The notes under the pieces are model-generated. The model worked only from the letters and a program-made list of their open reading frames with translations, made no database searches and was not told where the DNA came from. DNA of 64,000 nucleotides from Lachnospiraceae bacterium (lineage in GTDB: Bacteria > Bacillota > Clostridia > Lachnospirales > Lachnospiraceae). The number at the start of each line of letters is the position of its first letter. The stretch's first letter is position 1. The DNA lies in the NCBI GenBank assembly GCA_900199595.1, contig FZRB01000024.1, forward strand, positions 1-64,000. The letters are read 5' to 3'. Positions 6,706 to 21,341 of the stretch are shown piece after piece. Position numbers and translations under genes: made by a program.

Positions 6706-8070
6706 ATGGAAATTAAAAGAAATATCTATTATAAGATAGCTGAGTGGAAGAAAGAGACAAATGGGACGAAGGCATTACTGATTGAAGGAGCCAGACGAAT
6801 CGGAAAATCAACGGTTGTCGAAGAATTTGCTCAGAATGAGTACAAGTCATATATCTTGATCGATTTTAATAAGGCTAAGAAAAAGATAAAAGATGCTTTT
6901 GAATCCCTTGATGATCCGGATATTTTCTTTCAGACACTGGTGCTTGAATATAACACAAGGCTGTACCCAAGAGAATCTCTGATAATATTTGATGAAATAC
7001 AGAAATTTCCAAAGGCCAGGGAGGCAATTAAATATCTTGTCGCTGACGGAAGATATGACTACATTGAGACAGGATCGCTGATTTCAATTAAGGAGAATGT
7101 TGAGAGTATAACAATTCCATCAGAAGAGCGGAAAATGCAGATGTATCCGGTAAATTTCGAGGAATTTATGGTATACATGGGCGAAGAAATACTTCTTGAT
7201 CATATAAGGGGATGCTTCGAGGAAAGTCAGCCGCTTGATAGACAGATGCATAATAAGGCTATGCGCTTATTTATGGAGTATATGCTTGTTGGCGGAATGC
7301 CTCAGGCAATAGTTGCATTCAAGAAAAATGGAAGGGATTTCCATGCTGCCGATGTAGAAAAGAGGGATATTCTTGCACTCTATGAAGATGACATCAAAAA
7401 GGCAGCCAAGAAATATAAATCAAAGGTCTCAGCTATCTTTGATAATATCCCGGGCTTTTTGTCAACGCATGAAAAAAGGATTGTTTTAAGAGAAATTGAT
7501 AGTAATAATGGAACCTTTGACCGTTATGATGAGCCTTTGTTCTGGCTTGGCGATTCTATGATATGTAATCTTTGCTACAAATGTAATGACCCGAATGTTG
7601 GTCTTGCATTAAATAAAAATGAATCCTATGTAAAATGTTATATGGGAGATACAGGATTATTGGTCAGCCATGCATTTAGCGAGAATGAAATCATGGATGA
7701 ACAGCTTTATAAGCAGATAATGGATGGTAAATTGTCACTTAATCAGGGAATGCTTTATGAGAATATGATAGCACAGATGATTACAGCATCAGGCCGTAAG
7801 CTTTTCTTTTACACAAGATATAGCGAGGAAAAGCATAGGAATGATATTGAAATAGATTTTATTATCTCGAATGAGAGCAAGACAAAGTTTAAAATCAGCC
7901 CTATAGAAGTAAAATCATCAAAAAATTATACGACTTCATCACTTGGAACATTCAAAGAACTCTTTAAAAAGAGAATTGATAAGCAAATAATAGTGCACCC
8001 TAAGGGCTATTCAGAAGCGGATGGAGTCATAAAGATACCTCCATATATGATGCATCTAATATGTAGTTGA
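6706..8070 (+). CDS. AAA ATPase with DUF4143 domain (paralog 1)
   Basis: 454 aa. N-terminal P-loop ATPase (AAA_14 type): Walker A EGARRIGKST, Walker B-like SLIIFDEIQKFPKAR, sensor region YIETGSLISIKEN. The C-terminal half carries the DUF4143 signature YMGDTGLLVSHAF and a nuclease-like E-x-K, IEVKSSKNYT, near the end. The family is widespread and often multicopy in gut Firmicutes; its role is not settled. It is single-gene, with a repeat array directly upstream. A paralog lies at 12391. Confidence 0.9.
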   Translation: MEIKRNIYYKIAEWKKETNGTKALLIEGARRIGKSTVVEEFAQNEYKSYILIDFNKAKKKIKDAFESLDDPDIFFQTLVLEYNTRLYPRESLIIFDEIQKFPKAREAIKYLVADGRYDYIETGSLISIKENVESITIPSEERKMQMYPVNFEEFMVYMGEEILLDHIRGCFEESQPLDRQMHNKAMRLFMEYMLVGGMPQAIVAFKKNGRDFHAADVEKRDILALYEDDIKKAAKKYKSKVSAIFDNIPGFLSTHEKRIVLREIDSNNGTFDRYDEPLFWLGDSMICNLCYKCNDPNVGLALNKNESYVKCYMGDTGLLVSHAFSENEIMDEQLYKQIMDGKLSLNQGMLYENMIAQMITASGRKLFFYTRYSEEKHRNDIEIDFIISNESKTKFKISPIEVKSSKNYTTSSLGTFKELFKKRIDKQIIVHPKGYSEADGVIKIPPYMMHLICS

Positions 8071-8312: not shown

Positions 8313-9458
8313 ATGGGTGTAAATCGTTTTGTGTTGAATGGGGTTTCGTATCATGGCCATGGTGCTATAAATGAAATTCCAGGAATCATTAAGTCAAAAG
8401 GATTTAAGAAGGCTTTTGTAGCTTCAGATCCTGATCTGGTTAAGTTTGGGGTTACGACAAAGGTTACTGATTTGTTGGAACAGAATGGAATTGAATATGA
8501 AATATATTCAGATATTAAGCCTAATCCAACCATTGAAAATGTACAGAGTGGCGTTGCAGCTTATAAGGCATCTGGTGCCGATTTTATGATCACTATAGGT
8601 GGCGGTTCATCTATGGATACAGGAAAAGGAATAGGTATCATAGTAAATAATCCAGAGTATGCAGATGTTCGTTCTCTTGAAGGAGTTGCACCAACAAAGA
8701 ATCGTACAGTATTTACTATAGCAGTTCCTACAACAGGAGGAACTGGCGCTGAGTCAACAATCAATTATGTAATCACTGATGTTGAGAAAAAACGTAAATT
8801 TGTATGTGTTGACCCTAACGATATACCTGATGTAGCGGTTGTTGATCCGGATATGATGTCTACTATGCCTAAAGGCCTGAGTGCTTCAACAGGAATGGAC
8901 GCGCTGACACATGCCATCGAGGGTTACACCACAGCTGCAGCGTGGGAACTTTCGGATTGCTTGAATCTTGAAGCTATTAAGCTCATAGCCGCTAATCTTA
9001 GAAAAGCTGTTGAAAATGATCCTGAAGGCCGTGAAGGTATGGCGCTTGCACAATATGTTACGGCTATGGCATATTCAAATGTTGGACTTGGTATAGCTCA
9101 TTCTATGGCACATACACTTGGAGCGGTTTATGATACACCGCATGGTGTTGCCTGCGCGATGATGCTTCCGATAGTTATGGAGTTCAATGCTGAGGCAACT
9201 GGAGAAAAGTTTAAATATATAGCAGAAGCATTTGGTATAGATACACAGGGAATGGATCAGGCTACATATCGAAAAGCAGCTATAGATGCTGTTAGACAGC
9301 TTTCTGTTGACGTGGGTATACCTATAAAGCTTGATAAGCTTAAAGAAGAAGATCTTGATTTCCTTTGTGAGTCAGCAGCTGCAGATGCATGTGCGCCAGG
9401 TAATCCTAGAACTGCAAGTCTTGAAGAATTTAGAGAAATGTTTAAGAAATTGATGTAA
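8313..9458 (+). CDS. fucO: lactaldehyde reductase (1,2-propanediol oxidoreductase)
   Basis: 381 aa, the usual length of group III iron-dependent alcohol dehydrogenases. It shows NAD-binding GGGSSMDTGKG, PTTGGTGAES, and metal-binding DALTHAIEGY and HSMAHTLGAVYDTPHG, close to E. coli FucO throughout. It would reduce lactaldehyde, from fucose or rhamnose breakdown, to 1,2-propanediol with NADH. No sugar-pathway genes are adjacent, so it may act as a general fermentative aldehyde reductase. AAGGAGG ribosome site; an intrinsic terminator follows at once. Confidence 0.9.
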   Translation: MGVNRFVLNGVSYHGHGAINEIPGIIKSKGFKKAFVASDPDLVKFGVTTKVTDLLEQNGIEYEIYSDIKPNPTIENVQSGVAAYKASGADFMITIGGGSSMDTGKGIGIIVNNPEYADVRSLEGVAPTKNRTVFTIAVPTTGGTGAESTINYVITDVEKKRKFVCVDPNDIPDVAVVDPDMMSTMPKGLSASTGMDALTHAIEGYTTAAAWELSDCLNLEAIKLIAANLRKAVENDPEGREGMALAQYVTAMAYSNVGLGIAHSMAHTLGAVYDTPHGVACAMMLPIVMEFNAEATGEKFKYIAEAFGIDTQGMDQATYRKAAIDAVRQLSVDVGIPIKLDKLKEEDLDFLCESAAADACAPGNPRTASLEEFREMFKKLM

Positions 9459-10902: not shown

Positions 10903-10964
10903 TGGAATAGAAGAGCTATTAGTTTATATGAGAAAATGGATTTGAGATAGTAGGAAAAGCGTAA
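10903..10964 (+). pseudogene. GNAT C-terminal remnant with 1-nt frameshift
   Basis: WNRRAISLYEK is read in one frame and GFEIVGKA in the next, the characteristic C-terminal ending of a GNAT acetyltransferase. Restoring one G after GAGAAAATG would rejoin them. No N-terminal part remains. Confidence 0.65.
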
Positions 10965-11029
10965 TATTCCGGAATTATTAATCATGGATAGTGTTACGAA
11001 AAGTAGAAATATTGAAGAGGAATTATGAT

Positions 11030-11839
11030 ATGAATGTTGGGATAATTGGATATGGTAGCATGGGAAAAATGCTACTTCAGAAAATCAGTGAAACTGGTAA
11101 AGTAAATCATGATAAGTTATTTGTATCAAACAGGACTTTATCGAAAATTGAAGCAGCTCCAGATAAATATGTGATCAGTGAATCAAATACTTCTCTTGCA
11201 ATGTCTTCAGATATTATATTTATATGTACTCGTCCTGCTGATTTGCTGCCAGTATTAGAGGAAATATCAAGTGTTGTAAAAGATGATACGCTTATTATAT
11301 CCCTTAATGGAAGTATAACATTTGAATCTCTTGAGAAGATCAGCAACCGAAAATATGTAAAGGTTATTCCGAGCGTAACCGCTGAAATAAATAAATCTCA
11401 AACGTTGGTTACTTATAACAGATTTGTGAGTGAGGATGATAAAAGATTATTAAGAGATATTCTTTCATGTATCGGTAACGTCATCGAATTACCTGAAAAT
11501 GAGATGGGAATGGGGTCAGAGCTTGTAAGTTGTATGCCGGGATTTATAGCATCTATTTTCGATGTGATTTGTCAATCGGCAATAAAACATACGTCGATTC
11601 CGCAGGAGCAAGTAATTAAGATGGTTCTTGACACTTTGAGTTCAACCGGGGAACTCATGCTCCGTAAAGATATGAGTTTTGAAGATGTGGTAAAACGAGT
11701 GGCAACCAAAGGTGGTATTACTGAAGTGGGCTCAAGAGTGATATATGATGGCTTTCCAGACATTGCAGATGAGATGTTTGGAAAAACTCTTGCTAAGAGA
11801 AGAGAAACTGCAGCTATAGTTAAAACATACTGTGATTGA
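11030..11839 (+). CDS. pyrroline-5-carboxylate reductase family protein
   Basis: About 269 aa from the ATG at 11030, which is preceded by GAAGAGG and opens with the NAD(P)-binding MNVGIIGYGSMGKMLL. The family's C-terminal dimerisation region is visible as VATKGGITEVGSRV, with KVIPSVTAEI and SCMPGFIAS in the middle. True ProC makes proline from pyrroline-5-carboxylate; the divergence here, including SCMPGF in place of the usual SGSGPAY-like loop, points to a ComER/ProC-like paralog rather than the housekeeping enzyme. No proline genes are adjacent. Confidence 0.8.
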   Translation: MNVGIIGYGSMGKMLLQKISETGKVNHDKLFVSNRTLSKIEAAPDKYVISESNTSLAMSSDIIFICTRPADLLPVLEEISSVVKDDTLIISLNGSITFESLEKISNRKYVKVIPSVTAEINKSQTLVTYNRFVSEDDKRLLRDILSCIGNVIELPENEMGMGSELVSCMPGFIASIFDVICQSAIKHTSIPQEQVIKMVLDTLSSTGELMLRKDMSFEDVVKRVATKGGITEVGSRVIYDGFPDIADEMFGKTLAKRRETAAIVKTYCD

Positions 11840-11906
11840 AGTTTAAAATGGCAAACTATAGATAAATTAATTTCAGTATAACTGAGATAAAGGGGTGAGA
11901 ATAACA

Positions 11907-12011
11907 ATGATAAGACATGTTGAAATGCGGGATAAAGAAGCGTGGTATGCTCTCGATAAGCATTTGCCGGAATCTGTGTTTGCCGAAAAGGTAAGAAGTG
12001 GGCAGGGGTAG
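11907..12011 (+). pseudogene. GNAT N-terminal remnant
   Basis: Good ribosome site (AGGGGTGAG) and an ATG open a frame like a GNAT N-terminus (MIRHVEMRDKEAWYALDKHL), but it stops after 34 codons, before any acetyl-CoA motif. Confidence 0.55.
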
Positions 12012-12094
12012 AGAAGATATACAGGAGCTTACTGGAAGGTTGAAATAGAGTGGTGCAATAATAATGGGCTTCCGGAATATATTACACCAATTTC

Positions 12095-12259
12095 GCTAAG
12101 CCACTATTATCATTTGCGGAAAAATATCTTCCGGATAATAAGCAAGTGTTTTTTATTTATACTCATGGAGCACCAAAGGGTGGATTCTTAAAAGGAATCC
12201 GAGAGATTACAAATAAGAAAAATTGTAAGGAATTAGGTGATTATCACACTTTATTTTGA
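12095..12259 (+). pseudogene. flavodoxin-family C-terminal remnant
   Basis: An open stretch without a start reads AKPLLSFAEKYLPDNKQVFF, then IYTHGAPKGGFLKGI, the pattern of a flavodoxin-like or EFR1-type flavoprotein after its FMN site. The N-terminal phosphate-binding loop is missing. Confidence 0.5.
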
Positions 12260-12263
12260 TGAT

Positions 12264-12387
12264 AAATCTTGATTTGGTGTGAAATTCAAGAATTAAAAAT
12301 CTTGATTTGTGTCGCGAGAGGGATTATAATCAAAAAAACATGATTTGGTGTAAATGTCATGAACTAAAAATCTTGATTTGGTGATGA
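12264..12387 (+). repeat. ~33-nt repeats upstream of second AAA ATPase gene
   Basis: YTTGATTT-type words start at 12269, 12302, 12340 (as ATGATTT) and 12373, spacings 33, 38 and 33. Units 1 and 3 each form a dyad: CTTGATTT with AAATTCAAG, and CATGATTT with AAATGTCATG. The T-to-A change in one arm is matched in the other arm. The last unit ends in GGTGATGAG, which serves as the ribosome site of the ATPase gene. Confidence 0.65.
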
Positions 12388-12390
12388 GAT

Positions 12391-13749
12391 ATGCTTATGA
12401 AGCGCAAAATTGAAGAAAAAATCCTTAAATGGAAAGCAAATAGCAATGGCAAAACAGCCTTACTTATTGATGGTGCCAGACGTGTCGGAAAGAGTTATAT
12501 AGTTGAGGAATTTGCTAGGCAAAACTATAAGTCATATATTCTAATTGATTTTAATCAAATTGGTTCTGAAATCACTGATCTCTTTGATATGAATCTTCGA
12601 GATCTCGACAGCTTCTTTATGTATCTGTCGGCTGCCTTTAATGTAAAACTATATGACAGAGAGTCCCTGATTATTTTTGATGAGGTTCAGTTATATCCTC
12701 GAGCAAGAGCTGCAATTAAATTCCTTGTAGCAGATGGCAGATACGATTATATTGAGACTGGTTCTCTTATGTCTATTAAGAAAAATGTAAAAGACATTGT
12801 TATTCCATCGGAAGAACGTCATATTAAGATGTATCCCATGGATTTTGAGGAGTTTCTATGGGCAAAGGGCGAAGATATGATAATGCCTCTGATATTGGAT
12901 TGTTTTGAAAAAAGGAATCCATTGGGACAAGCTTTGCATCGTAAAGTCATGACACTTTTTCGTGAATACGTAATCATCGGCGGAATGCCTCAAGTTGTCA
13001 AGGAGTATATAGAGACTGGAAACTTCGAAGCAGCCGATCAGATTAAAAGAGATATCCTGACTTTGTACAGGGAGGATATTCAGAAACATGCGGAAGGTTA
13101 CGAGGGAAAAGTGGAGAGTATCTTTGATGAGATTCCTGCTCAGCTGTCAAAGCATGAAAAGAAGTTTACGATTTCTTCCTTGGGGAAAGGAGCTCGTTTT
13201 AGAGATTATGAGAGTGCATTTCTTTGGCTTCAGGATTCTATGATGACAAATGTGTGTTTCAATTCAACTGAACCCAATATAGGTTTAAAGATTAACCGTG
13301 ATAATTCTGCTTTTAAAATGTACATGGGAGATACCGGGCTTCTGATTAGTCACGCTTTTGACGAAAATGGGATTGTTTCAGAGGAAATATATAAAAAGCT
13401 GTTGTTTGGCAAGTTGGAAGTCAACGAGGGAATGATTTTTGAAAATATAGTATCACAAATGCTTGTTGCTAATGGTCGTGCCCTATACTTCTATTCTAAT
13501 TCATCTCGAACGGATAAGGATAGCAGAATGGAAATTGATTTTCTTTTGGCAAAGAGCAAAACAACCAATCGGCACAATATATCTCCGCTTGAAGTTAAAT
13601 CTGGAAAGAATTATACGTTATCATCTTTGAATAAATTCAGAAAAAAGTATTCTGAGCAGTTGAATGAAGCGTTTGTTTTACATACTGCTGACCTGAGTGA
13701 GAAAGATGGAATAACGTATTTGCCTGTTTATATGATTGTTTGTCTATAG
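12391..13749 (+). CDS. AAA ATPase with DUF4143 domain (paralog 2)
   Basis: 452 aa, collinear with the protein at 6706: Walker A DGARRVGKSY, Walker B-like SLIIFDEVQLYPRAR, YIETGSLMSIKKN, YMGDTGLLISHAF, and C-terminal LEVKSGKNYTLSS. Start M1 or M3 (12397) are equally possible; alignment with the paralog slightly favours M3. The Walker A Thr is replaced by Tyr (GKSY), whereas paralog 1 has GKST. Preceded by its own repeat array of different sequence but similar period. Confidence 0.9.
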   Translation: MLMKRKIEEKILKWKANSNGKTALLIDGARRVGKSYIVEEFARQNYKSYILIDFNQIGSEITDLFDMNLRDLDSFFMYLSAAFNVKLYDRESLIIFDEVQLYPRARAAIKFLVADGRYDYIETGSLMSIKKNVKDIVIPSEERHIKMYPMDFEEFLWAKGEDMIMPLILDCFEKRNPLGQALHRKVMTLFREYVIIGGMPQVVKEYIETGNFEAADQIKRDILTLYREDIQKHAEGYEGKVESIFDEIPAQLSKHEKKFTISSLGKGARFRDYESAFLWLQDSMMTNVCFNSTEPNIGLKINRDNSAFKMYMGDTGLLISHAFDENGIVSEEIYKKLLFGKLEVNEGMIFENIVSQMLVANGRALYFYSNSSRTDKDSRMEIDFLLAKSKTTNRHNISPLEVKSGKNYTLSSLNKFRKKYSEQLNEAFVLHTADLSEKDGITYLPVYMIVCL

Positions 13750-13876
13750 CAAAGAATGCTGATTGATAAAAGTCAGGGAGTCGAAATCGTGGTCAAAAGA
13801 GTAAATGTGTTGTTAAATTAAATCGGAAAAGAACTTGATATGAGTGCTGCAGGTAAAAATAGATAGATTGAGAGCT

Positions 13877-13994
13877 GTCTCATGAGCAAAGCACCCGAGC
13901 GGGACGCGGAAACGCTCCCGCTGCGGGCTGCCTTGTATATAGGATAGAGCGGTCATGAGACCGAGCTGGATCAATTGAAAAGGAGAACAAAACC
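13877..13994 (+). promoter_or_regulatory. repeated RiPP leader region, copy A
   Basis: Shares GCTTGTATATAGGATA or its one-base variants, a GCGGTCATGAGACCGAGCT hairpin and AAAAGGAGAACAAAACC ribosome site with copies B-D. Copy A alone has a strong hairpin AGCGGGA-c-GCG-GAAA-CGC-TCCCGCT (13898-13922). GTCTCATGA (13877-13885) can pair with TCATGAGAC (13953-13961), which competes with the local CGGTC/GACCG stem. Confidence 0.65.
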
Positions 13995-14192
13995 ATGAGC
14001 GAAGAGATCAAAAAGGAAGCGCAGGACACGGAGCTGAACAAAGAGGAGTTAGACAAGGTTGCTGGGGGAAGAATCACCATTGGACCCGACGGAGACTATC
14101 TGTTCAGGTGCCCTGAATGCGGCGAAACCTATGTGCCGGGGCAAAGCCATCAGTGCAGCTATTATAATAAGCCCTGCACCCCTCAACGGTAA
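13995..14192 (+). CDS. RiPP precursor, short SEEIKK leader, CxxC core (P1)
   Basis: 65 aa. The 25-residue leader MSEEIKKEAQDTELNKEELD ends in KVAGG. The core has CPECGETYVPGQSHQC and a final Cys, a zinc-knuckle-like spacing. The ribosome site AAAAGGAG is strong. The leader class is shared with P5, P6, P7 and P8. The likely role is a substrate for the cluster's radical SAM enzyme, cleaved after GG (inference). Confidence 0.75.
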   Translation: MSEEIKKEAQDTELNKEELDKVAGGRITIGPDGDYLFRCPECGETYVPGQSHQCSYYNKPCTPQR

Positions 14193-14256
14193 ACGAATAT
14201 AGATATCATCAAAGAGGAGAATAACGCCATAAAATGCATCGAAAGGAACATACCTT

Positions 14257-14463
14257 ATGATCAAAGTACACAACCGGGACATAGAAGAGTTACTGCGCGA
14301 TGCTGACTTTTCCAACTCAACCCATAAGGAGGCTTTGCGCAAACGTCTTTTCGGAGAAGGTACTGAATTGAAATTGGACGATCTTGCTATGGTTGCGGGC
14401 GGCCTGAACGAACCCTTTATTTCCCCGGAAGATTGGTCGGATAAGGATACGAGCCATGAATAA
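14257..14463 (+). CDS. RiPP precursor-like peptide paired with HExxH protein (P2)
   Basis: 68 aa. A different leader class: IEELLRDADF and ALRKRLFGEGTELKLDDLAM ending VAGG, then a Cys-free acidic core LNEPFISPEDWSDKDTSHE. The last 8 bases overlap the HExxH gene, so the two are translationally coupled. Its near copy at 17490 has the same core, so unlike the other precursors this one is conserved, not variable. Confidence 0.7.
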   Translation: MIKVHNRDIEELLRDADFSNSTHKEALRKRLFGEGTELKLDDLAMVAGGLNEPFISPEDWSDKDTSHE

Positions 14464-15310
14464 AACAAGTGTATTGGGATGTCTTGCAGAGGAGTACCCC
14501 CAGCTGTATCTGAACCCAGATACGGACAAGCGGGAGGCTTATCGTCGTGTCGTGCTGCGCGGTGAAGAACCGGTGACAAAAAGCCTGTCTCATTACCGGG
14601 GAGATCCCGCGGACTGGGAGGAAATCGCTGACACTCCAGCGGGACAGGTACGGGTGGTCACGCTGGGGTCTCGGCGGGATTTTGAACTGGTGCTGCGGGG
14701 CCTCATGGCTGCCAAGGACGGACCTCTGACTCCGATCCCGGAAAGCCAGGGGGCAGCCATGCTGACCGTGTTCAACTGGCCACGAATCCACACGCACCTT
14801 GCGGCCTTCCCGGAGAAGGAAAGAGAGGTGGAGCTGAAACGCTTCACTGCCGTCCGAGAAAATTACATAGATACACTGGTAGTGCTATCCCGAGGACCGT
14901 ATAGCCATGTGGATGCCGTCACTGTCGGAGAAACAGATGCCGAATGGCTCGATCACTCTGATACGATCCGCCGCTATCATGAGCTGAGCCATGTGATCTG
15001 CCGCAGGCTTTACCCCGGAGATATTGTTCCAATACGGGATGAGCTGGTGGCCGATGCGGTGGGACTCATCGCCGCCTATGGTCAATTTGACCTGCTTCTG
15101 GAGCAACGCTTTCTCGGCGTTCAGGGCGGATGTTATGTCGGTGGGCGGTTGGGCAACTATACGGACAATCCCGATACGCTGGCCTCACAGGCTTCCTTCG
15201 CATTGGAGCGTATCAAAGCGAAAACCGACACGCTCTCCTGGGAAGAACCCTTTGACCTGATCCCGGTCTTGATGGAAGTCGCTGATATTGGAGAGGCAGG
15301 AAAAGCATAA
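14456..15310 (+). CDS. HExxH putative metallopeptidase of RiPP cluster, copy 1
   Basis: 284 aa, no signal peptide or membrane helix. Residues 175-179 are HELSH (HExxH), and 196-200 are ELVAD (ExxxD), a gluzincin-like zinc-site pattern, in a soluble protein. I do not recognise the family with certainty. It overlaps P2 by 8 bases and is repeated with P2 at 17689. It could cleave leaders, since no C39 peptidase or ABC exporter is seen in the island, or it could modify P2. Base composition is richer in G and C than the flanking chromosome. Confidence 0.7.
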   Translation: MNKTSVLGCLAEEYPQLYLNPDTDKREAYRRVVLRGEEPVTKSLSHYRGDPADWEEIADTPAGQVRVVTLGSRRDFELVLRGLMAAKDGPLTPIPESQGAAMLTVFNWPRIHTHLAAFPEKEREVELKRFTAVRENYIDTLVVLSRGPYSHVDAVTVGETDAEWLDHSDTIRRYHELSHVICRRLYPGDIVPIRDELVADAVGLIAAYGQFDLLLEQRFLGVQGGCYVGGRLGNYTDNPDTLASQASFALERIKAKTDTLSWEEPFDLIPVLMEVADIGEAGKA

Positions 15311-15315
15311 AAATG

Positions 15316-15405
15316 CTGTCTCCAAATGGATGGCAGGCTTGTATATAGGATAAAGCGGTCATGAGACCGAGCTAAATAAACAATTATGAAAAGGAGAACA
15401 AAACC
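15316..15405 (+). promoter_or_regulatory. repeated RiPP leader region, copy B
   Basis: CTGTCTCCAAATGGATGGCA, then GCTTGTATATAGGATAAAG, the CGGTCATGAGACCG hairpin (15357-15368 core) and AAAAGGAGAACAAAACC. Nearly identical to copy D at 18549. GTCTC and GAGAC can also pair over the longer range. Confidence 0.65.
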
Positions 15406-15765
15406 ATGAACGAAAACCTGAAGAAATTTCTGGAGGAAGCCAGCAAGAACGAGGAACTGAAAGCCAGGCTCGCCGCACTGACCGACAAGGACACGGCTGC
15501 GGCGAAGGCCGTTGAACTGGCCAAGGAGTACGGCTTCGCCCTGACCGCCGAGGATTTTCAGCCCGCCGATGGCGAGGAGCTGTCTCTCGACGAGCTGGAC
15601 AATGTTGCGGGCGGCTGGTGCATTTTTGCAGGCGGCGGAAGCGGTGGTACAAAGAAAATACCATATTGTGAAAAGTGCGAAGAGTGCAAAGTGGATGAAA
15701 CGGTAGGGAAGCCATGCTCCAAATGTGGCACGATTCTCACAGAAATTATTCTTCATTACAATTGA
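15406..15765 (+). CDS. RiPP precursor, Nif11-like leader, zinc-ribbon core (P3)
   Basis: 119 aa. A Nif11-like leader of about 70 residues (NLKKFLEEASKNEEL, AVELAKEYGFALTAEDFQP, LSLDELDNVAGG) is followed by a Gly-rich core with one Cys, then PYCEKCEEC and CSKCGTIL. The two CxxC pairs are zinc-ribbon-like. Nif11 leaders guide RiPP enzymes; the GG marks the probable cleavage site. P11 and P12 have nearly the same leader and tail but different middle parts. Confidence 0.85.
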   Translation: MNENLKKFLEEASKNEELKARLAALTDKDTAAAKAVELAKEYGFALTAEDFQPADGEELSLDELDNVAGGWCIFAGGGSGGTKKIPYCEKCEECKVDETVGKPCSKCGTILTEIILHYN

Positions 15766-15801
15766 TTTCTTTTGCTAAACAATCGGGCACAGAGGTCGAT
15801 C

Positions 15802-15879
15802 ATGTACTACCGTTTGAAAGATAGATACTGTCTGCGGGGCTGGGAGTTGCTGCCTTACGCCCTGCTGGATGCCAAATAG
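15802..15879 (+). pseudogene. 5' remnant of radical SAM gene, copy 1
   Basis: MYYRLKDRYCLRGWELLPYA continues LLDAK and stops. It matches the first 23 or so residues of the radical SAM protein at 19633. It follows a Nif11 precursor, as the intact gene does, so a former precursor-plus-enzyme unit was cut down here. Confidence 0.85.
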
Positions 15880-15928
15880 GACGATCAAATGAGCCAATCT
15901 AATTATCATGAAGAAGGAGAACAAAACC

Positions 15929-16198
15929 ATGAACGAGAACCTGAAGAAATTTCTGGAAGTGGCCAGCAAGAACGAGGAGCTGAAAGCCAGCCTCACCGCG
16001 CTGACCGACAAGGATACCGCAGTTGAAAAGGCTATCGAGCTCGCCAAGGAGTACGGCTTCGCCCTGGCTGCCGAGGATTTTCAGCCCGCCGATGGCGCAG
16101 AGCTGTCTCTCGATGAGCTGGATAGTGTTGCGGGCGGCGGATTGTTTGACATTTTGAAAGAGATTGGGAAAGGCTCCTGGAGGGAGGAAAACTCATGA
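15929..16198 (+). CDS. RiPP precursor, Nif11-like leader, amphipathic Cys-free core (P4)
   Basis: 89 aa from the ATG at 15929, matching the start of its paralogs and placed behind AAGGAGAACAAAACC; an in-frame ATG at 15908 lies within the ribosome-site region. The leader ends LDSVAGG. The core GLFDILKEIGKGSWREENS has no Cys and looks like a short amphipathic helix. ATGA overlap with P5 couples their translation, hinting at a paired product (inference). Confidence 0.8.
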   Translation: MNENLKKFLEVASKNEELKASLTALTDKDTAVEKAIELAKEYGFALAAEDFQPADGAELSLDELDSVAGGGLFDILKEIGKGSWREENS

Positions 16199-16425
16199 GT
16201 GAAGAGATCAAAAAAGAAGCGCAGGACGCGGAACTGAGCCCGGAGGAGATGGACAAGGTTGCCGGGGGCTTTACCGACCATTTTAAACGCGAAGAAAGAT
16301 TTGTTTTTTCAGAAGAAGAAATGAAAAAAATGAAAAATGGCATTTGCCCAATATGCAACCAAAAAATCGGTTCTGGAACAGATATCATGAAAGTTTGGGA
16401 GCATGCGAAGAACTGCAAAGGGTGA
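16195..16425 (+). CDS. RiPP precursor, short leader, CCHC-like core (P5)
   Basis: 76 aa. Leader MSEEIKKEAQDAELSPEEMD then KVAGG. The core carries CPICNQKIGSG and later EHAKNC, a C-x2-C-x15-H-x3-C pattern like a zinc finger. Ribosome site GGGAGGAAAA inside P4. Coupled to P4 by ATGA. Confidence 0.75.
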   Translation: MSEEIKKEAQDAELSPEEMDKVAGGFTDHFKREERFVFSEEEMKKMKNGICPICNQKIGSGTDIMKVWEHAKNCKG

Positions 16426-16443
16426 TGCTTGAAAAATGCACCC

Positions 16444-16530
16444 TGTCTCCAAGCGGCGGGCTGCCTTGTATATAGGATAGAGCGGTCGTGAGACCGATCT
16501 AAATATTTTTTTGAAAAGGAGAACAATACC
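16444..16530 (+). promoter_or_regulatory. repeated RiPP leader region, copy C
   Basis: CTGTCTCCAAGCGGCGGGCT, CCTTGTATATAGGATAGAG, a GGTCGTGAGACC hairpin (16484-16495), then GAAAAGGAGAACAATACC. The loop base change A to G leaves the stem intact. Confidence 0.65.
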
Positions 16531-16758
16531 ATGAGTGAAGAAATCAAAAAGGACAATGAACTGAATCCTGAGGTGTTGGAAAATGTTACCGGTGGGGGTA
16601 TGTTTACACCGAATGATAACGGAACAATAGTCACTGAGAAAATCACAGATGATCCGGGCAAGAAAATAGTATGTCCGAAGTGCGGATCTTAGAATTTAAG
16701 CTACAAAGGCGGTACCACTTTCAAATGTTATATTTGCAGTACTGAATTCACCGTCTGA
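16531..16758 (+). pseudogene. RiPP precursor interrupted by in-frame TAG (P6)
   Basis: Short SEEIKK-type leader ending NVTGG, then a core that reaches CPKCGS and meets TAG at 16690-16692. The same frame stays open for 21 more codons (NLSYKGGTTFKCYICSTEF and two residues) to TGA. The second CxxC pair of a zinc ribbon therefore lies beyond the amber codon. Either a recent nonsense mutation or, less likely, readthrough. The 53-aa truncated product may still be made. Confidence 0.7.
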
Positions 16759-16837
16759 GTAACAGAACTTGCGAGTTAAAAGTTTAGCACCCACTGATGC
16801 CATGATTATAAACAATTATGAAAAGGAGAGCAAAACC

Positions 16838-17065
16838 ATGAGTGAAGAGATTAAAAAGGAAGCGCAGGACGTGGAGCTGAGTTTGGAGGATTTGACGAAA
16901 ATTGCCGGAGGAACAAATTCGAACACTGTGGACTGGGGAGACCCTTCCAAGCTGCCGTACACTTGCCCCTTCTGCAATGCAACCCTCACTACACGAGAAG
17001 AGGTTGTAGGTCATCTTACGGCTCATGTATCGGATGTGTTACAAAAAACGCAGCCATCGTGGTAG
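16838..17065 (+). CDS. RiPP precursor with classical C2H2-spaced core (P7)
   Basis: 75 aa from the ATG at 16838, behind AAAAGGAG; the upstream extension to 16769 is not leader-like. The leader ends LTKIAGG. The core contains CPFC, 12 residues, then HLTAH: C-x2-C-x12-H-x3-H, the exact spacing of a classical C2H2 zinc finger. No other Cys follows. Confidence 0.75.
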   Translation: MSEEIKKEAQDVELSLEDLTKIAGGTNSNTVDWGDPSKLPYTCPFCNATLTTREEVVGHLTAHVSDVLQKTQPSW

Positions 17066-17113
17066 GCAGCAGATTTAGAAGGAGCAAAATAATCAGAAAA
17101 GGAGAACAACACC

Positions 17114-17326
17114 ATGAGCGAAGAGATCAAAAAGGAAGTACAGGATGCAGAGCTGAACCCGGAGGAGCTGGACAAGGTCGCGGGAGGATTTATTATTGAT
17201 CAAAATAAAATATACACATGTCCAAAATGTGGAGGACAGTTTAAGGGCATGGATTATTATGTTCATTCGCAAGGTTGCGGAGCTGAACCCGGAGGATGGG
17301 GAGAAGGTCAGCGGCGGAAAAATTAG
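17114..17326 (+). CDS. RiPP precursor with recombined 3' end (P8)
   Basis: 70 aa. Leader MSEEIKKEVQDAELNPEELD then KVAGG. The core has CPKCGGQFKGMDYYVHSQGC, a C-x2-C...H-x3-C pattern. After HSQGC the frame reads through a second leader in the wrong frame (GAEPGGWGEGQRRKN). The natural end was probably near HSQGC, so the tail is a fusion scar. Confidence 0.7.
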   Translation: MSEEIKKEVQDAELNPEELDKVAGGFIIDQNKIYTCPKCGGQFKGMDYYVHSQGCGAEPGGWGEGQRRKN

Positions 17327-17453
17327 CACCACTCCAAAATGCCCGAACTGTGGTGAATATTTGGACTGGAATGGCGGATTCGGTACGTATATTTGCCCCA
17401 AATGCGGCTATCACAAGCCGAAAATTGATGGGTACGGTCCATTTGGACAATAA
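17271..17453 (+). pseudogene. leaderless precursor fragment fused behind P8 (P9)
   Basis: In the frame shifted from P8, the sequence reads KVAELNPEDGEKVSGG, the end of a short leader, then a full zinc-ribbon-like core with CPNCGEYLDW and YICPKCGYHKP. There is no start codon of its own, so translation would need a frameshift from P8. Recombination between two leader sequences explains it. Confidence 0.7.
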
Positions 17454-17489
17454 TTTTGGCAATCCTGCGCCAAAAGAAGGGGATAGTTC

Positions 17490-17696
17490 ATGAGAAAACC
17501 ACCTGACCGAGACGTTGAAGCGCTGCTGCGCGACGCCAACTTTGCCAACTCCGCCCACAAGGAGGCTTTGCACAAATGTCTTTTCGGAGAAGGCACTGAA
17601 TTGAAATTGGACGATCTTGCTATGGTTGCGGGCGGCCTGAACGAACCCTTTATTTCCCCGGAAGATTGGTCGGATAAGGATACGAGCCATGAATAA
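17490..17696 (+). CDS. RiPP precursor-like peptide, copy of P2 (P10)
   Basis: 68 aa. The leader differs from P2 at a number of residues in its first half, including one Cys (ALHKCLFGEG), but the VAGG and the core LNEPFISPEDWSDKDTSHE are identical. It overlaps the second HExxH gene by 8 bases. Strong conservation of a Cys-free core suggests a product with its own function, or a leader-like adaptor for the HExxH protein. Confidence 0.7.
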   Translation: MRKPPDRDVEALLRDANFANSAHKEALHKCLFGEGTELKLDDLAMVAGGLNEPFISPEDWSDKDTSHE

Positions 17697-18543
17697 AACA
17701 AGTGTATTGGGATGTCTTGCAGAGGAGTACCCCCAGCTGTATCTGAACCCGGATACGGATACGCGGGAGGTTTATCGTCGTGTCGTGCTGCGCGGTGAAG
17801 AACCGGTGACAAAAAGCCTGTCTCATTACCGGGGAGACCCCGCGGACCGAAAGGAAATCGCTGACACTCCAGCGGGACAGGTACGGGTGGTCACACTCGG
17901 CAATCGGCAGGATTTTGAACTGGTGCTGCGGGGCCTCATGGCCGCCAAGGACGGACCTCTGACCCCGATCCCGGAAAGCCAGGGGGCAGCCATGCTGACC
18001 GTGTTCAACTGGCCACGAATCCACACGCACCTTGCGGCCTTCCCGGAGAAGGAAAGAGAGGTGGAGCTGAAACGCTTCACTGCCGTCCGTGAAAATTACA
18101 TAGATACACTGGTAGTGCTATCCCGAGGACCGTATAGCCATGTGGATGCCGTCACTGTCGGAGAAACAGATGCCGAATGGCTCGATCACTCTGATACGAT
18201 CCGCCGCTTTCACGAGCTGAGCCATGTGATCTGCCGCAGGCTTTACCCCGGAGATATTGCTCCAATACGGGACGAGCTGGTGGCCGATGCGGTGGGACTC
18301 ATCGCCGCCTATGGTCAATTTGACCTGCTTCTGGAGCAACGCTTTCTCGTCGTTCAGGGCGGATGTTATGTCGGTGGACGGCTGGGCAACTATACGGATA
18401 ATCCCGATACGCTGGCCTCACAGGCTTCCTTCGCATTGGAGCGCATCAAAGTGAAAACCGACACGCTCTCCTGGGAAGAACCCTTTGACCTGATCCCGGT
18501 CTTGATGGAAGTCGCTGATATTGGAGAGGCAGGAAAAGCATAA
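17689..18543 (+). CDS. HExxH putative metallopeptidase of RiPP cluster, copy 2
   Basis: 284 aa, differing from the protein at 14456 at only about a dozen positions (for example RRFHELSH against RRYHELSH, GDIAPIRD against GDIVPIRD). H175, E176, H179, E196 and D200 are all kept. That both copies keep the putative zinc ligands and an intact frame suggests that both are functional or that the duplication is recent. Coupled to P10 by an 8-base overlap. Confidence 0.7.
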   Translation: MNKTSVLGCLAEEYPQLYLNPDTDTREVYRRVVLRGEEPVTKSLSHYRGDPADRKEIADTPAGQVRVVTLGNRQDFELVLRGLMAAKDGPLTPIPESQGAAMLTVFNWPRIHTHLAAFPEKEREVELKRFTAVRENYIDTLVVLSRGPYSHVDAVTVGETDAEWLDHSDTIRRFHELSHVICRRLYPGDIAPIRDELVADAVGLIAAYGQFDLLLEQRFLVVQGGCYVGGRLGNYTDNPDTLASQASFALERIKVKTDTLSWEEPFDLIPVLMEVADIGEAGKA

Positions 18544-18548
18544 AAATG

Positions 18549-18638
18549 CTGTCTCCAAATGGATGGCAGGCTTGTATATAGGATAGAGAGGTCATGAGAC
18601 CGAGCTAAATAAACAATTATGAAAAGGAGAACGAAACC
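18549..18638 (+). promoter_or_regulatory. repeated RiPP leader region, copy D
   Basis: Near-identical to copy B: CTGTCTCCAAATGGATGGCA, GCTTGTATATAGGATAGAG, GGTCATGAGACC hairpin (18590-18601) and AAAAGGAGAACGAAACC before P11. One stem base differs (AGAGGTC against AAGCGGTC), which removes an outer pair. Confidence 0.65.
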
Positions 18639-19013
18639 ATGAACGAAAACCTGAAAAAATTTCTGGAGGAAGCCAGCAAGAACGAGGAACTGAAAGCCAA
18701 GCTCGCCGCACTGACCGACAAGGACACGGCTGCGGCGAAGGCCGTTGAACTGGCCAAGGAGTACGGCTTCGCCCTGACCGCCGAGGATTTTCAGCCCGCC
18801 GATGGCGAGGAGCTGTCTCTCGACGAGCTGGATCAGGTCGCGGGCGGCGCGAACTGCGTAGCCTCGAGCAGCACGATGTGCATGGTCTTTGGCATGAATA
18901 AAGTAAAAATGCCTTATTGTACAAAGTGCGAATCCTTCTGGGGAGGTGAGGGCAACCCGATCGGAAGTCCCTGCCCTAAATGCGGCACGATCCTCATTGG
19001 GAAGGAGTGGTGA
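18639..19013 (+). CDS. RiPP precursor, Nif11-like leader, zinc-ribbon core (P11)
   Basis: 124 aa. The leader is almost identical to P3 up to LSLDELDQVAGG. The core first has ANCVASSSTMCMVFG, unlike P3, then the shared tail PYCTKCESFW and CPKCGTILIGKEW. Two Cys in the variable part and two CxxC pairs in the tail. Confidence 0.85.
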   Translation: MNENLKKFLEEASKNEELKAKLAALTDKDTAAAKAVELAKEYGFALTAEDFQPADGEELSLDELDQVAGGANCVASSSTMCMVFGMNKVKMPYCTKCESFWGGEGNPIGSPCPKCGTILIGKEW

Positions 19014-19091
19014 TAAGCCCCGGTAGATGCCGACCAGAAAGGCCAAGTCAACCAATCCTATTATTATATTTTTGAAAAGGAGAACAAAACC

Positions 19092-19484
19092 ATGAACGAG
19101 AACCTGAAGAAATTTCTAGAAGAGGCAAGCAAGAACGAGGAGCTAAAAGCAAAGCTCGAAGCGCTGACCGACAAGGAGACCGCAGTGGACAAGGCCATCG
19201 AACTGGCCAAGGAGTATGGCTTTACCCTGACCGCTGAGGATTTTCAGCCCGCAGAGGGTGCGGAGTTGTCTCTGGACGAGTTGGATAGTGTTGCTGGGGG
19301 GAACGGTTGCTTTTGCATATTGTTTGGTAGCGGCGGCGGTAATAACTGCGCCTGTATGGGCAGCGGCGATGGCCCAAAGAAAAGACCATATTGTGAGAAG
19401 TGCCAAGAATTTGTATGGGATGGCACAGTAGGGACCCCCCACAGTTGCGGCACTATTCTCGTTGAAAAAGAGTCTTTGTTCTGA
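19092..19484 (+). CDS. RiPP precursor, Nif11-like leader, Cys/Gly-rich core (P12)
   Basis: 130 aa. The leader ends LDSVAGG. The core opens NGCFCILFGSGGGNNCACMG (four Cys), then PYCEKCQEF and a tail HSCGTILVE where the usual CxKC has lost its first Cys. The dense Cys/Gly part is typical of thioether-type or disulfide RiPP cores. It lies last before the radical SAM gene. Confidence 0.85.
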   Translation: MNENLKKFLEEASKNEELKAKLEALTDKETAVDKAIELAKEYGFTLTAEDFQPAEGAELSLDELDSVAGGNGCFCILFGSGGGNNCACMGSGDGPKKRPYCEKCQEFVWDGTVGTPHSCGTILVEKESLF

Positions 19485-19522
19485 GTTGCTTTTTGCGAGA
19501 AGATTGGGGTGGATGGGTAAGT

Positions 19523-19552
19523 ATATACTACCGTTTGAAAGATAGATATATC
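19523..19552 (+). pseudogene. 5' remnant of radical SAM gene, copy 2
   Basis: YYRLKDRY is readable at 19526-19549, with ATA where the ATG would be, then the similarity ends. With 15802 and the intact gene at 19633 this makes three copies of the gene's 5' end, each downstream of a Nif11-type precursor. Confidence 0.75.
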
Positions 19553-19570
19553 TACAAATCATTCATCAAA

Positions 19571-19602
19571 CAGGCACGTCACCCTTTGAAGTGGCGTGCC
19601 TG
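19571..19602 (+). terminator. strong hairpin between precursors and radical SAM gene
   Basis: CAGGCACG-t-CAC pairs with GTG-g-CGTGCCTG around an 8-base loop. No T-run follows, so it is more likely a partial terminator, an mRNA stabiliser for precursor transcripts or a processing site than a full stop. It would let precursors be made in excess over the enzyme (inference). Confidence 0.55.
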
Positions 19603-19632
19603 CAATAAAAAAGATCGAACGGAAGGGATACT

Positions 19633-21087
19633 ATGTACTATCGTATAAAAGACAAATACAAACTGCGGGGCTGGGAACTGCTGCCCTACGCTCTGGTGGA
19701 CAGCGAAACGCACCGGGCGCACTTCGTGCAGAAAGCAGAGTTTGACGCCCTCACCCTCTGCGACGGGACGGTAGATCTTGCCCTCCCCCTGATTTCGCAG
19801 AGTGTGCGGGAAAGTGCTGAAAAACTGTCTGAGAAGGGATATATCGAACAATGTTCACCCGGAACGGAGATTTTGGATGAGCAGAAATATAAGCGTTATC
19901 CTAACCGCTTTATGAAACATGCCCATTGGTCCATCACCGGAAAATGCAACTGCAAATGCAAGCATTGTTTTCTGTCTGCTGCTGACGGGCGTTATGGTGA
20001 GCTAAGCCACGATGACGCCATGAAAATAGTCGATGAGCTTGGAGCGTGTGGTGTGCTGTCTTGTTCCATCACCGGAGGTGAGCCTTTCGTGCGTTCCGAC
20101 TTCTGGGAGATTGTTGATGGACTGACAGAGCGGGGCATATACATTAGCCAGATATACTCCAATGGTTTACTTGTAAATGAAAGGCTTTTAGATAAGTTTG
20201 AAGATCGCGGACTGCATCCGGAGTTCAATATGAGCTTTGATGGTGTAGGATATCATGATTGGCTCCGTGGCATAGATGGGGCAGAAAAAGCCGTGCGTCA
20301 TGCCTTTGAAATCTGCCGGGACAGGGGTTTTCCAACTGGGGCTGAGATGTGTCTGTGGAGGGAAAATGCTCATACCCTGCGTGATAGTGTAAACTATTTG
20401 GCTTCTGTAGGCTGCTGGAGCCTTAAGACCAATCCTGTGGCAGACACAGGTGCATGGCAGGAGGGTGGCTATGCAAAGAAACATGGTCTGAGCTCAGATG
20501 AGACGAATGCCATATATCTTGACTACATAGAGGATTTCTATCAGGACCTGCCGGAGATTTCACTGCATCTGGGAGGCTTCTTTGCTGCGGATGGGCGGCA
20601 GCCGGATACATACAGTCTACCCGCCATCCATGTGGCAAAGGATCCGGAGAATACCTGTATGTGTGCTCACGCAAGAAATTCTCTGTATATTTCAGCGGAG
20701 GGACGTGCGCTTACCTGTATGCCCATCTCAAACAACGACGAGTTTCAGGCGGAGTATCCGCTGATTCAGGAACTGGGTCTGCGTCAGTGCCTGACGGAAT
20801 CGAAGTACATGGAGCTTATAAATACTCGCTCCGCTGCCGTGCTTGCTCATAACGAAAAGTGCGTTGACTGCGCCTATCGCAGACTCTGTCTTGGCGGCTG
20901 CCGGGCGGTGGGGCTCCAGTGCCATCCGGGCGACATCCTTGCCCCGGACGAATCCACCTGCAGGCTCTTCCGTGACGGCTGGCTGCAGCAAATTACGGAG
21001 AAGGTAAGCAGACTGCGTCCTTCGGCGGAGTGTGCGGAGCAAAAGCGTCTGCGCGAGCTTGGCCGTGAAGACGAGATCAGGCGCTGA
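19633..21087 (+). CDS. radical SAM/SPASM peptide maturase
   Basis: 484 aa. Residues 1 to about 80 resemble a PqqD-like recognition domain (LPYALVDSETHRAHF, AEKLSEKGYIEQC). The radical SAM motif is C105-N-C-K-C109-K-H-C112, with GGEPFVRSDF after it. A Cys-rich SPASM region follows: CMCAHARN, LTCMP, CVDCAYRRLCLGGCRAV, CHPGD and STCRLF, enough to bind two auxiliary Fe-S clusters. Such enzymes make thioether or C-C crosslinks in Cys-rich peptides. It is the only tailoring enzyme of this type here, so it probably serves many precursors. GGAAGGGATACT ribosome site. Confidence 0.93.
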   Translation: MYYRIKDKYKLRGWELLPYALVDSETHRAHFVQKAEFDALTLCDGTVDLALPLISQSVRESAEKLSEKGYIEQCSPGTEILDEQKYKRYPNRFMKHAHWSITGKCNCKCKHCFLSAADGRYGELSHDDAMKIVDELGACGVLSCSITGGEPFVRSDFWEIVDGLTERGIYISQIYSNGLLVNERLLDKFEDRGLHPEFNMSFDGVGYHDWLRGIDGAEKAVRHAFEICRDRGFPTGAEMCLWRENAHTLRDSVNYLASVGCWSLKTNPVADTGAWQEGGYAKKHGLSSDETNAIYLDYIEDFYQDLPEISLHLGGFFAADGRQPDTYSLPAIHVAKDPENTCMCAHARNSLYISAEGRALTCMPISNNDEFQAEYPLIQELGLRQCLTESKYMELINTRSAAVLAHNEKCVDCAYRRLCLGGCRAVGLQCHPGDILAPDESTCRLFRDGWLQQITEKVSRLRPSAECAEQKRLRELGREDEIRR

Positions 21088-21113
21088 TGAGGGCGGCCTA
21101 AAAGAGGTGTTTT

Positions 21114-21341
21114 ATGTTTGAACCATATAGGAACAGAGTAATAAAGGGAATAGCCTTTGTAATGGCATTACTTATCGTAGCATCGCATATATTTTTATCC
21201 GATACGGCGGCGGCCGCAGGCACGGGTGACAGCGGTGAAACGACTTTTCTTTCAGAGAATTATTCTGATGTATATTTGGAAACCCATACAGGGGTTATGG
21301 TTGCGGCTGAGGCAGAGGCAGCTGCAAATAGTGATAACTGA
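21114..21341 (+). CDS. small exported or membrane-anchored peptide
   Basis: 75 aa. Positively charged N-terminus, one hydrophobic helix (about residues 11-30) and an Ala-rich stretch DTAAAAGTGD that could be a signal peptidase site, then a short acidic tail ending AAEAEAAANSDN. It starts 27 bases after the radical SAM gene with AAGAGGTG. Role unknown; it may belong to the same operon. Confidence 0.5.
   Translation: MFEPYRNRVIKGIAFVMALLIVASHIFLSDTAAAAGTGDSGETTFLSENYSDVYLETHTGVMVAAEAEAAANSDN

Follow-up and report, generated by a model that had tools for sequence, protein, structure and literature searches.

An island of export-type leader peptides with zinc-finger-like cores beside a radical SAM enzyme in a Lachnospiraceae genome

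The window analysed here, 64,000 nucleotides of contig C8 in the 3.49 Mb genome of a Lachnospiraceae bacterium, contains an island of small peptide genes at positions 13882-21087. The island comprises eleven leader peptides, one leader-less peptide end, two HExxH proteins of the Pfam family DUF7005 and one radical S-adenosylmethionine (SAM)/SPASM enzyme. It is a known kind of system, that of the NHLP/Nif11 (NHLM) ribosomally synthesized and post-translationally modified peptides (RiPPs), with an unusual payload, as many of the peptide cores resemble zinc fingers or zinc ribbons. Loci beyond the window carry L-numbers below and genomes carry G-numbers; coordinates without a prefix are those of the window. 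The parts of the island, all of them on the + strand, are as follows.

13882..13947, +: remnant of a 68-aa-type leader gene, its 5′ part, which continues into the repeat (by-eye comparison with the 68-aa leader peptides)
13935..13964, +: upstream repeat copy 1, TATATAGGATAGAGCGGTCATGAGACCG
13995..14192, +: short-leader peptide, core CPEC..H.C..C
14257..14463, +: 68-aa VAGG peptide with an acidic tail, cysteine-free, overlapping the following DUF7005 gene
14456..15310, +: DUF7005 (PF22541) HExxH protein copy 1 (Pfam E 4.6e-37)
15341..15370, +: upstream repeat copy 2
15406..15765, +: Nif11-leader peptide, an extra N-terminal Cys and a CEKC..CSKC ribbon (TIGR03798 38.2 bits)
15802..15879, +: N-terminal fragment of a radical SAM gene (26 residues at 73% identity before a TAG stop)
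15929..16198, +: Nif11 leader with a truncated core lacking cysteine
16195..16425, +: short-leader peptide, C2HC finger-like core (relatives aligned)
16468..16497, +: upstream repeat copy 3
16531..16692, +: short-leader peptide that stops at TAG after one CxxC
16838..17065, +: short-leader peptide, canonical C2H2 finger-like core (zf-C2H2_4 E 0.0046, below cut-off; structure model)
17114..17326, +: short-leader peptide, C2HC-like core, its 3′ end overlapping the next leader in another frame
17272..17453, +: leader end (VSGG) and CPNC..CPKC ribbon, no leader start of its own (zinc-ribbon profiles)
17490..17696, +: 68-aa VAGG peptide copy 2
17689..18543, +: DUF7005 HExxH protein copy 2 (E 3.0e-35)
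18574..18603, +: upstream repeat copy 4
18639..19013, +: Nif11-leader peptide, two extra Cys and a CTKC..CPKC ribbon (TIGR03798 40.4 bits)
19092..19484, +: Nif11-leader peptide, four extra Cys and CEKC..HSC (TIGR03798 41.2 bits)
19633..21087, +: radical SAM/SPASM enzyme outside the named NCBIfam subfamilies (PF04055 E 7.1e-19)

The initial annotation, made from the letters of this DNA alone, reported about eleven peptides with shared leaders ending in VAGG, and we find eleven open reading frames (ORFs) with leaders ending in VAGG, VTGG or IAGG (starts at 13995, 14257, 15406, 15929, 16195, 16531, 16838, 17114, 17490, 18639 and 19092). These leaders are of three types: Nif11 (15406, 15929, 18639 and 19092), a short MSEEIKKEAQD..L..VAGG form (13995, 16195, 16531, 16838 and 17114) and the 68-aa peptide ahead of each DUF7005 gene (14257 and 17490). 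Profile searches bore out the proposal that this is a RiPP-type island, with leaders of Nif11 type and a maturase of SPASM type: peptides 15406, 18639 and 19092 all score above the TIGR03798 cut-off of 32.3 bits, and the enzyme matches PF04055 and has the conserved C-terminal cysteines. The same searches placed the duplicated HExxH proteins, 96% identical to each other, in DUF7005. The further claim that the cores carry CxxC pairs needs trimming, as 14257 and 17490 (acidic tails) and the truncated 15929 are cysteine-free, and 16531 has one CxxC before its stop (TAG at 16690-16692).

Both marks of an NHLP/Nif11 (NHLM) system are present, a GG-ending Nif11 leader above cut-off and a pair of exporter genes in the genome. 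The exporter lies on a different contig from the island, C2, where NHLM ABC1 scores 899.9 bits (above its cut-off of 853.3) and ABC2 scores 699.3 (just under 709.4). Contig C2 also carries a 35% identical radical SAM enzyme and two peptides with a CAATVE motif. FeoB genes precede the C2 exporter, and a small gene before its ABC genes resembles an HlyD-like gene by eye, with no NCBIfam model matching at E 1e-10. One more Nif11 peptide (CPYC..H..C) is found on contig C15. In two other loci, L038 and L084, the array and exporter genes occur together. The order in L038 is HlyD-like gene, C39 ABC, a small unrelated ORF, second ABC, sigma factor, short-leader peptides, 68-aa peptide, DUF7005, a CCxxC peptide, two Nif11 peptides and radical SAM. 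Here ABC1 (911.7 bits) and ABC2 (727.8 bits) are both above cut-off beside the same peptides, and the HlyD-like gene is short, with a partial TIGR03794 match below cut-off. We consider it rather likely, judging from the genes, that the C2 exporter would serve the island. The gene between exporter and array encodes an extracytoplasmic function (ECF) sigma factor (L038:5831-6328, E 6.3e-24; L084:9730-10227 and L031:2003-2500, the latter two alike by eye).

The NHLP/Nif11 leader (NHLM) export systems were described by Haft, Basu and Mitchell in 2010 (PMC2887384). The likeness lies in the Nif11-type GG leader, the hypervariable core and the NHLM C39 ABC with a second ABC; the differences are the finger or ribbon cores (once an SH3 domain), the short SEEIKKE leaders, DUF7005 and an exporter outside the island. 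Prochlorosins (PMC10783134) likewise join a conserved Nif11-type leader to many unlike cores, but with an enzyme of the ProcM lanthipeptide group, whereas here a radical SAM/SPASM enzyme accompanies finger-like cores. The earlier remark that zinc-finger-like cores with these partners match no named class goes too far for the leaders, maturase type and exporter, which belong to the described NHLP/Nif11 (NHLM) systems. We found no paper on a zinc-finger payload or on DUF7005 in the literature searched, which leaves most subscription papers outside.

The evidence for zinc sites comes from cores collected by their GG leader. Twelve records were searched, ten yielded any, and 60 peptides gave 57 distinct cores. 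The records were picked because their enzyme or leader was similar, or were taken from around such matches, and the cores played no part in the choice; the filter missed the window peptides 17490 and 17272 and omitted a 427-aa fusion in L031. A general zinc-site pattern devised for this analysis, CxxC-x(6-30)-[CH]-x(1-5)-[CH], fits 30 of the 57 cores, whereas 2000 shuffles that preserved composition averaged 3.7 and never reached 30. After clustering into 22 groups, a loose grouping that merges some unlike cores, 10 of the 22 representatives fit (0.49 expected; 0/5000 shuffles). None of 63 control ORFs from the same records, all bearing a ribosome-binding site and lacking a GG leader, fits. 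Eight records fetched later gave 4/8 fitting cores (0.61 expected, 0/5000 shuffles), all four from one locus. A stricter finger-type pattern, with a motif end of His-x3-5-His/Cys and a hydrophobic residue fourth after the CxxC, is found in 15/57 cores (0.12 expected), and the C2H2 PROSITE signature in 2/57 (0.01 expected).

Profiles and a structure model point in the same direction. Ten cores were hand-picked as finger-like, including the leader-less 17272 ribbon; at E 0.05 eight of them have a Pfam match (seven to a zinc family by name), a proportion that is no rate for all cores, and none of ten shuffled cores does. The sole core among the ten to pass a cut-off is L031:6145, with 27.3 bits for zf-C2H2_4 (cut-off 27.0). 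Peptide 16838 matches the same family at E 0.0046 as a whole protein and 0.002 as core alone, and the 17272 ribbon matches several zinc-ribbon profiles at E 1.6e-4 to 1.5e-3, every one below cut-off. In the core of 16195 the ligand columns are invariant in 5/5 aligned relatives, but so are many other columns. The model of 16838, built on an alignment of ten array peptides anchored at the leader and the CxxC, has strands at 41-42 and 49-50 and a helix at 53-70, with a block pLDDT (predicted local distance difference test) of 78-79 over residues 41-60. Among the 50 PDB matches listed by Foldseek, 44 have zinc or a zinc finger in the title and one is the core of a reovirus; we take five more to be finger proteins. 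The root-mean-square deviation is often 1.0-1.3 over 24-27 residues, and the E-values are poor because the peptide is short, while the matches are nearly uniform in kind. The cores share spacing, hydrophobic positions and a predicted beta-beta-alpha fold with C2H2/C2HC fingers such as the single finger of SUPERMAN (1njq). They differ in being lone fingers behind an export-type leader in a bacterium, with weak scores.

Chance spacing of cysteines was considered as an explanation and rejected, on account of the shuffles of equal composition and the shuffled cores in Pfam. We also dropped a general rule that Nif11 cores are zinc-like, as only 2/25 outside this genome fit (1.2 expected). Some results weigh against a zinc-binding payload: the profile scores are mostly weak, the window cores stay below the Pfam cut-offs and 27/57 collected cores fall outside the zinc-site pattern. 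On balance we regard zinc binding by the short-leader finger cores as likely on these patterns and models. The arrays share a leader and not a metal site, and we therefore read them as export of small domains and not as a family of zinc peptides. In genome G399, for example, a short leader stands ahead of an SH3_3 domain (L086, E 5.4e-15). The gene in question, L086:3363-3635, encodes a GG leader and bacterial SH3_3, and the genes downstream encode signal-like N-termini.

Taking the anatomy, the zinc-site excess and the exporter genes together, we favour, with somewhat better than even confidence, a reading in which an NHLM-type exporter secretes mini-domains tagged by a leader, many of which bind zinc, and the radical SAM enzyme modifies some of them. 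Metal binding, cleavage, modification and function are all predicted here from sequence. The island would be satellite to a peptide export system of NHLM type, with each small gene combining a conserved leader (short SEEIKKE or Nif11) and an interchangeable core; many of the cores would be small zinc-binding folds, namely C2H2/C2HC fingers and zinc ribbons. The leader would deliver the peptide to the NHLM exporter, the C39 domain would cut after GG and the mini-domain would be released outside. The radical SAM/SPASM enzyme would modify Nif11-leader peptides, probably at the extra cysteines before the ribbon, with the finger cysteines left to hold metal. For a secreted mini-protein of an anaerobe, the metal site may serve as the staple that disulfides provide elsewhere. 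Competition or signalling between bacteria seems the likeliest use, where a function toward other cells is a guess.

The radical SAM enzyme (19633) has a CxxxCxxC motif and conserved C-terminal SPASM-type cysteines. The Pfam SPASM model does not match the window enzyme and does match its relatives in L031 and L138. NCBIfam gave 65 matches, the best 25 of which all fall far under their cut-offs, so no named subfamily applies. Apart from that in L038, the collected relatives are 29-41% identical to the window enzyme, and eight sequences share a conserved N-terminal region of 96 columns. A search for a PqqD-like RiPP recognition element (RRE) matched no RRE chain to the enzyme N-terminus by profile at E 10. 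In a sample of the class, relatives at E 1e-60 occur in 3/391 genomes, the window's own included. The family TIGR04103 (nif11-class peptide radical SAM maturase 3) is alike in placing a radical SAM enzyme beside Nif11 peptides, and one TIGR04103-type locus, Nostoc p057_G, even has a DUF7005 gene close by; however, its Nif11 cores are not finger-like, and the window enzyme scores 67 bits against a cut-off of 725.

The main competing explanation is that these are thioether RiPPs of the sactipeptide or ranthipeptide type, in which the enzyme links CxxC cysteines to their neighbours, crosslinks replace the metal and the finger look is simply a rhythm of cysteines. The cysteine-rich cores do adjoin an enzyme with radical SAM/SPASM motifs; its profile relatives in the PDB include SkfB (6efn), 5v1q and 5wgg, the last two of which we take to be SuiB and CteB. 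With these thioether maturases it shares the radical SAM core and SPASM-type cysteines but, unlike them, it falls in no named subfamily. Precursors beside the enzyme in L072 and L138 are, in addition, all ribbon-like. A rhythm of cysteines would not, however, explain the histidine and hydrophobic positions of the finger-type pattern, nor why shuffles of equal cysteine count gave no zinc-family match, and 19092 has His in place of one ligand Cys of the ribbon family that it forms with 15406 and 18639. The His ligands and this exchange favour metal over thioether links, and we consider thioethers in place of metal unlikely. The initial annotation had offered both; metal is now better supported for the short-leader cores, by finger spacing, the model and the exchange, and thioethers are plausible chiefly at the extra cysteines. 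Among pattern-fitting cores, cysteines ahead of the site occur in 6/7 with a Nif11 leader, 7/7 CAATVE and 2/16 others, a rough count for CAATVE cores since the matched CxxC may fall inside the CAATVE patch; the short-leader cores have hardly any cysteines outside the motif. This suggests that the extra cysteines are the targets and that short-leader cores are not substrates. From gene order and cysteine count, we put the chance that the enzyme would act on these extra cysteines at about one half; since its neighbours in L138 and L072 are ribbons, it might also act on the ribbon.

The peptides might instead be exported to scavenge or deliver zinc, as peptide metallophores, and not to act on other cells. 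Many cores look metal-capable, and zinc-transport genes neighbour DUF7005 in 3/25 loci inspected gene by gene, against a background rate that was not measured (the 25 being 9 loci of relatives from metagenome-assembled genomes (MAGs), 10 family-sample loci, L084, the window and 4 plasmids, with L011, L015 and L018 outside). ZnuA lies 13 bases from DUF7005 in L010 (region 318-1307, E 1.8e-69); ZnuA (E 1.4e-65), ABC and ABC-3 genes are directly upstream in L037:6253-8905; and a Cation_efflux gene with ZT_dimer is upstream in L016:131-910 (E 3.6e-40). Furthermore, two Cation_efflux genes precede a sigma factor, a radical SAM relative and a C39 ABC in L133:5407-8250, and the FeoB genes ahead of the C2 exporter fit the same idea. 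Metal capture nonetheless seems improbable to us: by motif scan the window island, L031, L038 and L084 have no zinc-transport neighbour, 12/57 cores across all records are cysteine-free, one core is an SH3 domain, and the cores diversify instead of keeping one site. Of similarly low probability is that the island is a transferred, degenerating relic, or that its finger peptides stay in the cell and work there as regulators. Broken or truncated copies at 13882, 15802, 15929, 16531 and 17272 and an unlinked exporter would agree with this. Both DUF7005 copies and most peptides are uninterrupted, though, the ratio of nonsynonymous to synonymous divergence (dN/dS) against L038 is 0.11 for radical SAM and 0.17 for DUF7005, and the array keeps company with exporter genes in L038 and L084. 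For DUF7005 itself, NCBIfam, which presumably holds the right model for HExxH RiPP hydroxylases, gave no family at E 1. We very much doubt that it decorates the cores as an HExxH hydroxylase dependent on alpha-ketoglutarate, in the manner of ChlH, PflC or PosC, although HExxH enzymes from RiPP clusters have proved to be oxygenases of this kind (PMC12636437).

Returning to the reading of exported mini-domains, DUF7005 may equally well be, or not be, a zinc metallopeptidase-like accessory; its conserved residues are what lead us to propose it. All 15 aligned members share H175, E176, H179, D195, E196, A199 and D200, and an HExxH followed by E and D is the gluzincin arrangement. The model is confident (pLDDT 93.2), and Foldseek and VIA gave no usable PDB match for it. 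DUF7005 occurs in 14/397 genomes of a family sample. Loci L007/L134, L012 and L017/L138 adjoin NHLP or Nif11-like peptides; none are close by in L131, L132, L135, L136 and L137, with one possible GG peptide 8 kb off in L131. The relatives from named MAGs gave nine loci, five of which stand apart (L032, L033 and L035-L037). On plasmids all four matches (two in Nostoc, one each in Pseudanabaena and Spirosoma) are near Nif11, NHLP or NHLM genes, the context of an unannotated Nostoc plasmid being judged by reading HlyD-like and C39 ABC-like ORFs. The family thus gains a context, with some loci from Clostridia, cyanobacteria and one Bacteroidota plasmid in NHLM/Nif11 neighbourhoods and a few by zinc transporters.

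Some variants of the DUF7005 position may be recorded here. In L031:9554-10837 DUF7005 is fused in one ORF of 427 aa to a CAATVE precursor, leader and ribbon included, which is either real or an assembly artefact. A CCxxC core is found beside DUF7005 in L031:10834 and L038:8480. In L030:2551-3561 and L084:5636-6646 a 336-aa protein takes the place of DUF7005, after the 68-aa leader peptide or its remnant; for the L030 protein, neither NCBIfam nor Pfam gave a match at E 0.1.

Few of the genomes sampled have the short-leader form. It is found in L030 (RGIG4372, roe deer jejunum), L031 (RUG166) and L038 (RUG467), and in a further genome, G787, from a sample of G397's family (2/300 genomes, G397 being one of them; 2/380 with G398 as centre). 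Within the window's genus it is present in 1/61 genomes, the window's own. Outside these arrays, L138 (genome G012 of the window's family, a widened L017) has DUF7005 at 8720-9427, a STAS protein, radical SAM at 10912-12360 and four peptides at 12446-13863. Its DUF7005 is 35% and its radical SAM 30% identical to those of the window. Three of the four peptides are above the Pfam Nif11 cut-off, all four cores are ribbon-like (CPxC, then a second cysteine pair) and three carry a further cysteine ahead of the site, so that L138:8720-13863 is probably the clearest small version of the trio of DUF7005, radical SAM and ribbon peptides. In L072, from genome G663 of another family, an enzyme 64% identical to that of L138 adjoins a CPMC..CYDC Nif11 peptide; a second Nif11 peptide of G663, on another contig (L098), is cysteine-rich and outside the zinc-site pattern. 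Together, L138 and L072 indicate an association of DUF7005 and this enzyme family with ribbon-like Nif11 cores that extends beyond the window's array. Peptides with the CAATVE motif also lie beside related radical SAM enzymes in L039:15683-16337 and L085:9773-10678; that at L039:15683 matches no NCBIfam family at E 0.1 and that at L085:10220 no Pfam family at E 0.01.

The island was probably acquired by transfer from another bacterium, to judge from its composition and distribution. In 2-kb bins its GC content is 0.46-0.52, compared with 0.34-0.42 outside, and this contrast, along with the single genome of the genus that has the leader, argues for transfer. The DNA also carries signs of cassette exchange. 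Between the window and L038 the synonymous divergence (dS) is about 1.0 for radical SAM and DUF7005, and 1.1 for the 68-aa peptide, in line with the enzymes, while three peptide genes have dS of 0.12-0.36 (their cores 0-0.32). Two array genes of L031 and L084 encode 99-100% identical protein with dS 0. Among 26 short-leader genes the median DNA identity is 0.69 for leaders and 0.45 for cores, the same as for shuffled cores (0.45), with 17/325 core pairs above the 99.5th percentile of shuffled pairs. A 28-bp repeat stands ahead of many array genes; the window has the four copies listed above, and 13 copies were counted in 5/6 genomes, all on array contigs, with 0 copies in reversed-pattern controls. 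Remnants of 68-aa genes run into the repeat at 13882 and at L031:5685, and the former has a matching stretch in L031 and L038 (window 13854-14011 and 13854-13925). The conserved leaders with unrelated cores, the repeat and the lower dS of most peptide genes suggest that cassettes have been swapped between bacteria, and homologous recombination through leaders and repeat would be the simplest account.

The fourth putative ligand Cys of peptide 17114 (codon 17276-17278) lies within DNA that aligns to the next gene's leader, with repeat D2 starting at 17272, so this finger may be partly a recombination product. The 28-bp repeat may serve as a promoter, and the ECF sigma factor may act on it; two copies fold with z-scores of -1.9 and -2.3, which is not decisive. 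Searches for a carrier gave no DUF7005 match in phages at E 1e-5, no radical SAM relative in plasmids at E 1e-40 or in viral contigs, and no exact match to the repeat pattern in viral contigs, and so lend no support to a phage or plasmid.

A bolder version of these ideas is, in our opinion, tentative. The secretion payload would be an open library of folded metal-binding domains, fingers and ribbons among them, behind standard export leaders and traded among Clostridia as cassettes with the 28-bp repeat. Zinc would stand in for disulfides or crosslinks, and the radical SAM enzyme would crosslink only a separate cysteine patch, yielding hybrid peptides that are both metal-stapled and crosslinked. 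Should the export reading be right, small folded domains too would travel behind RiPP-type leaders through NHLM exporters, and searches confined to short modified cores would misinterpret or overlook them. Bacteria would furthermore offer secreted single zinc fingers that can be put to the test, and a natural, oxygen-free way to stabilise secreted mini-proteins.

Some smaller features of the surroundings complete the description. Another short stretch like the start of the radical SAM gene can be read by eye at 19522-19560. At 21114-21341, 3′ of the radical SAM gene, a 75-aa ORF with a hydrophobic N-terminus has no Pfam match at E 0.01. Immediately ahead of the island, at 12391-13749, lies an AAA_14/DUF4143 ATPase gene, and similar-looking ORFs occur at 6706-8070 and at L040:7613-8953, the latter next to the Nif11 finger peptide of contig C15.

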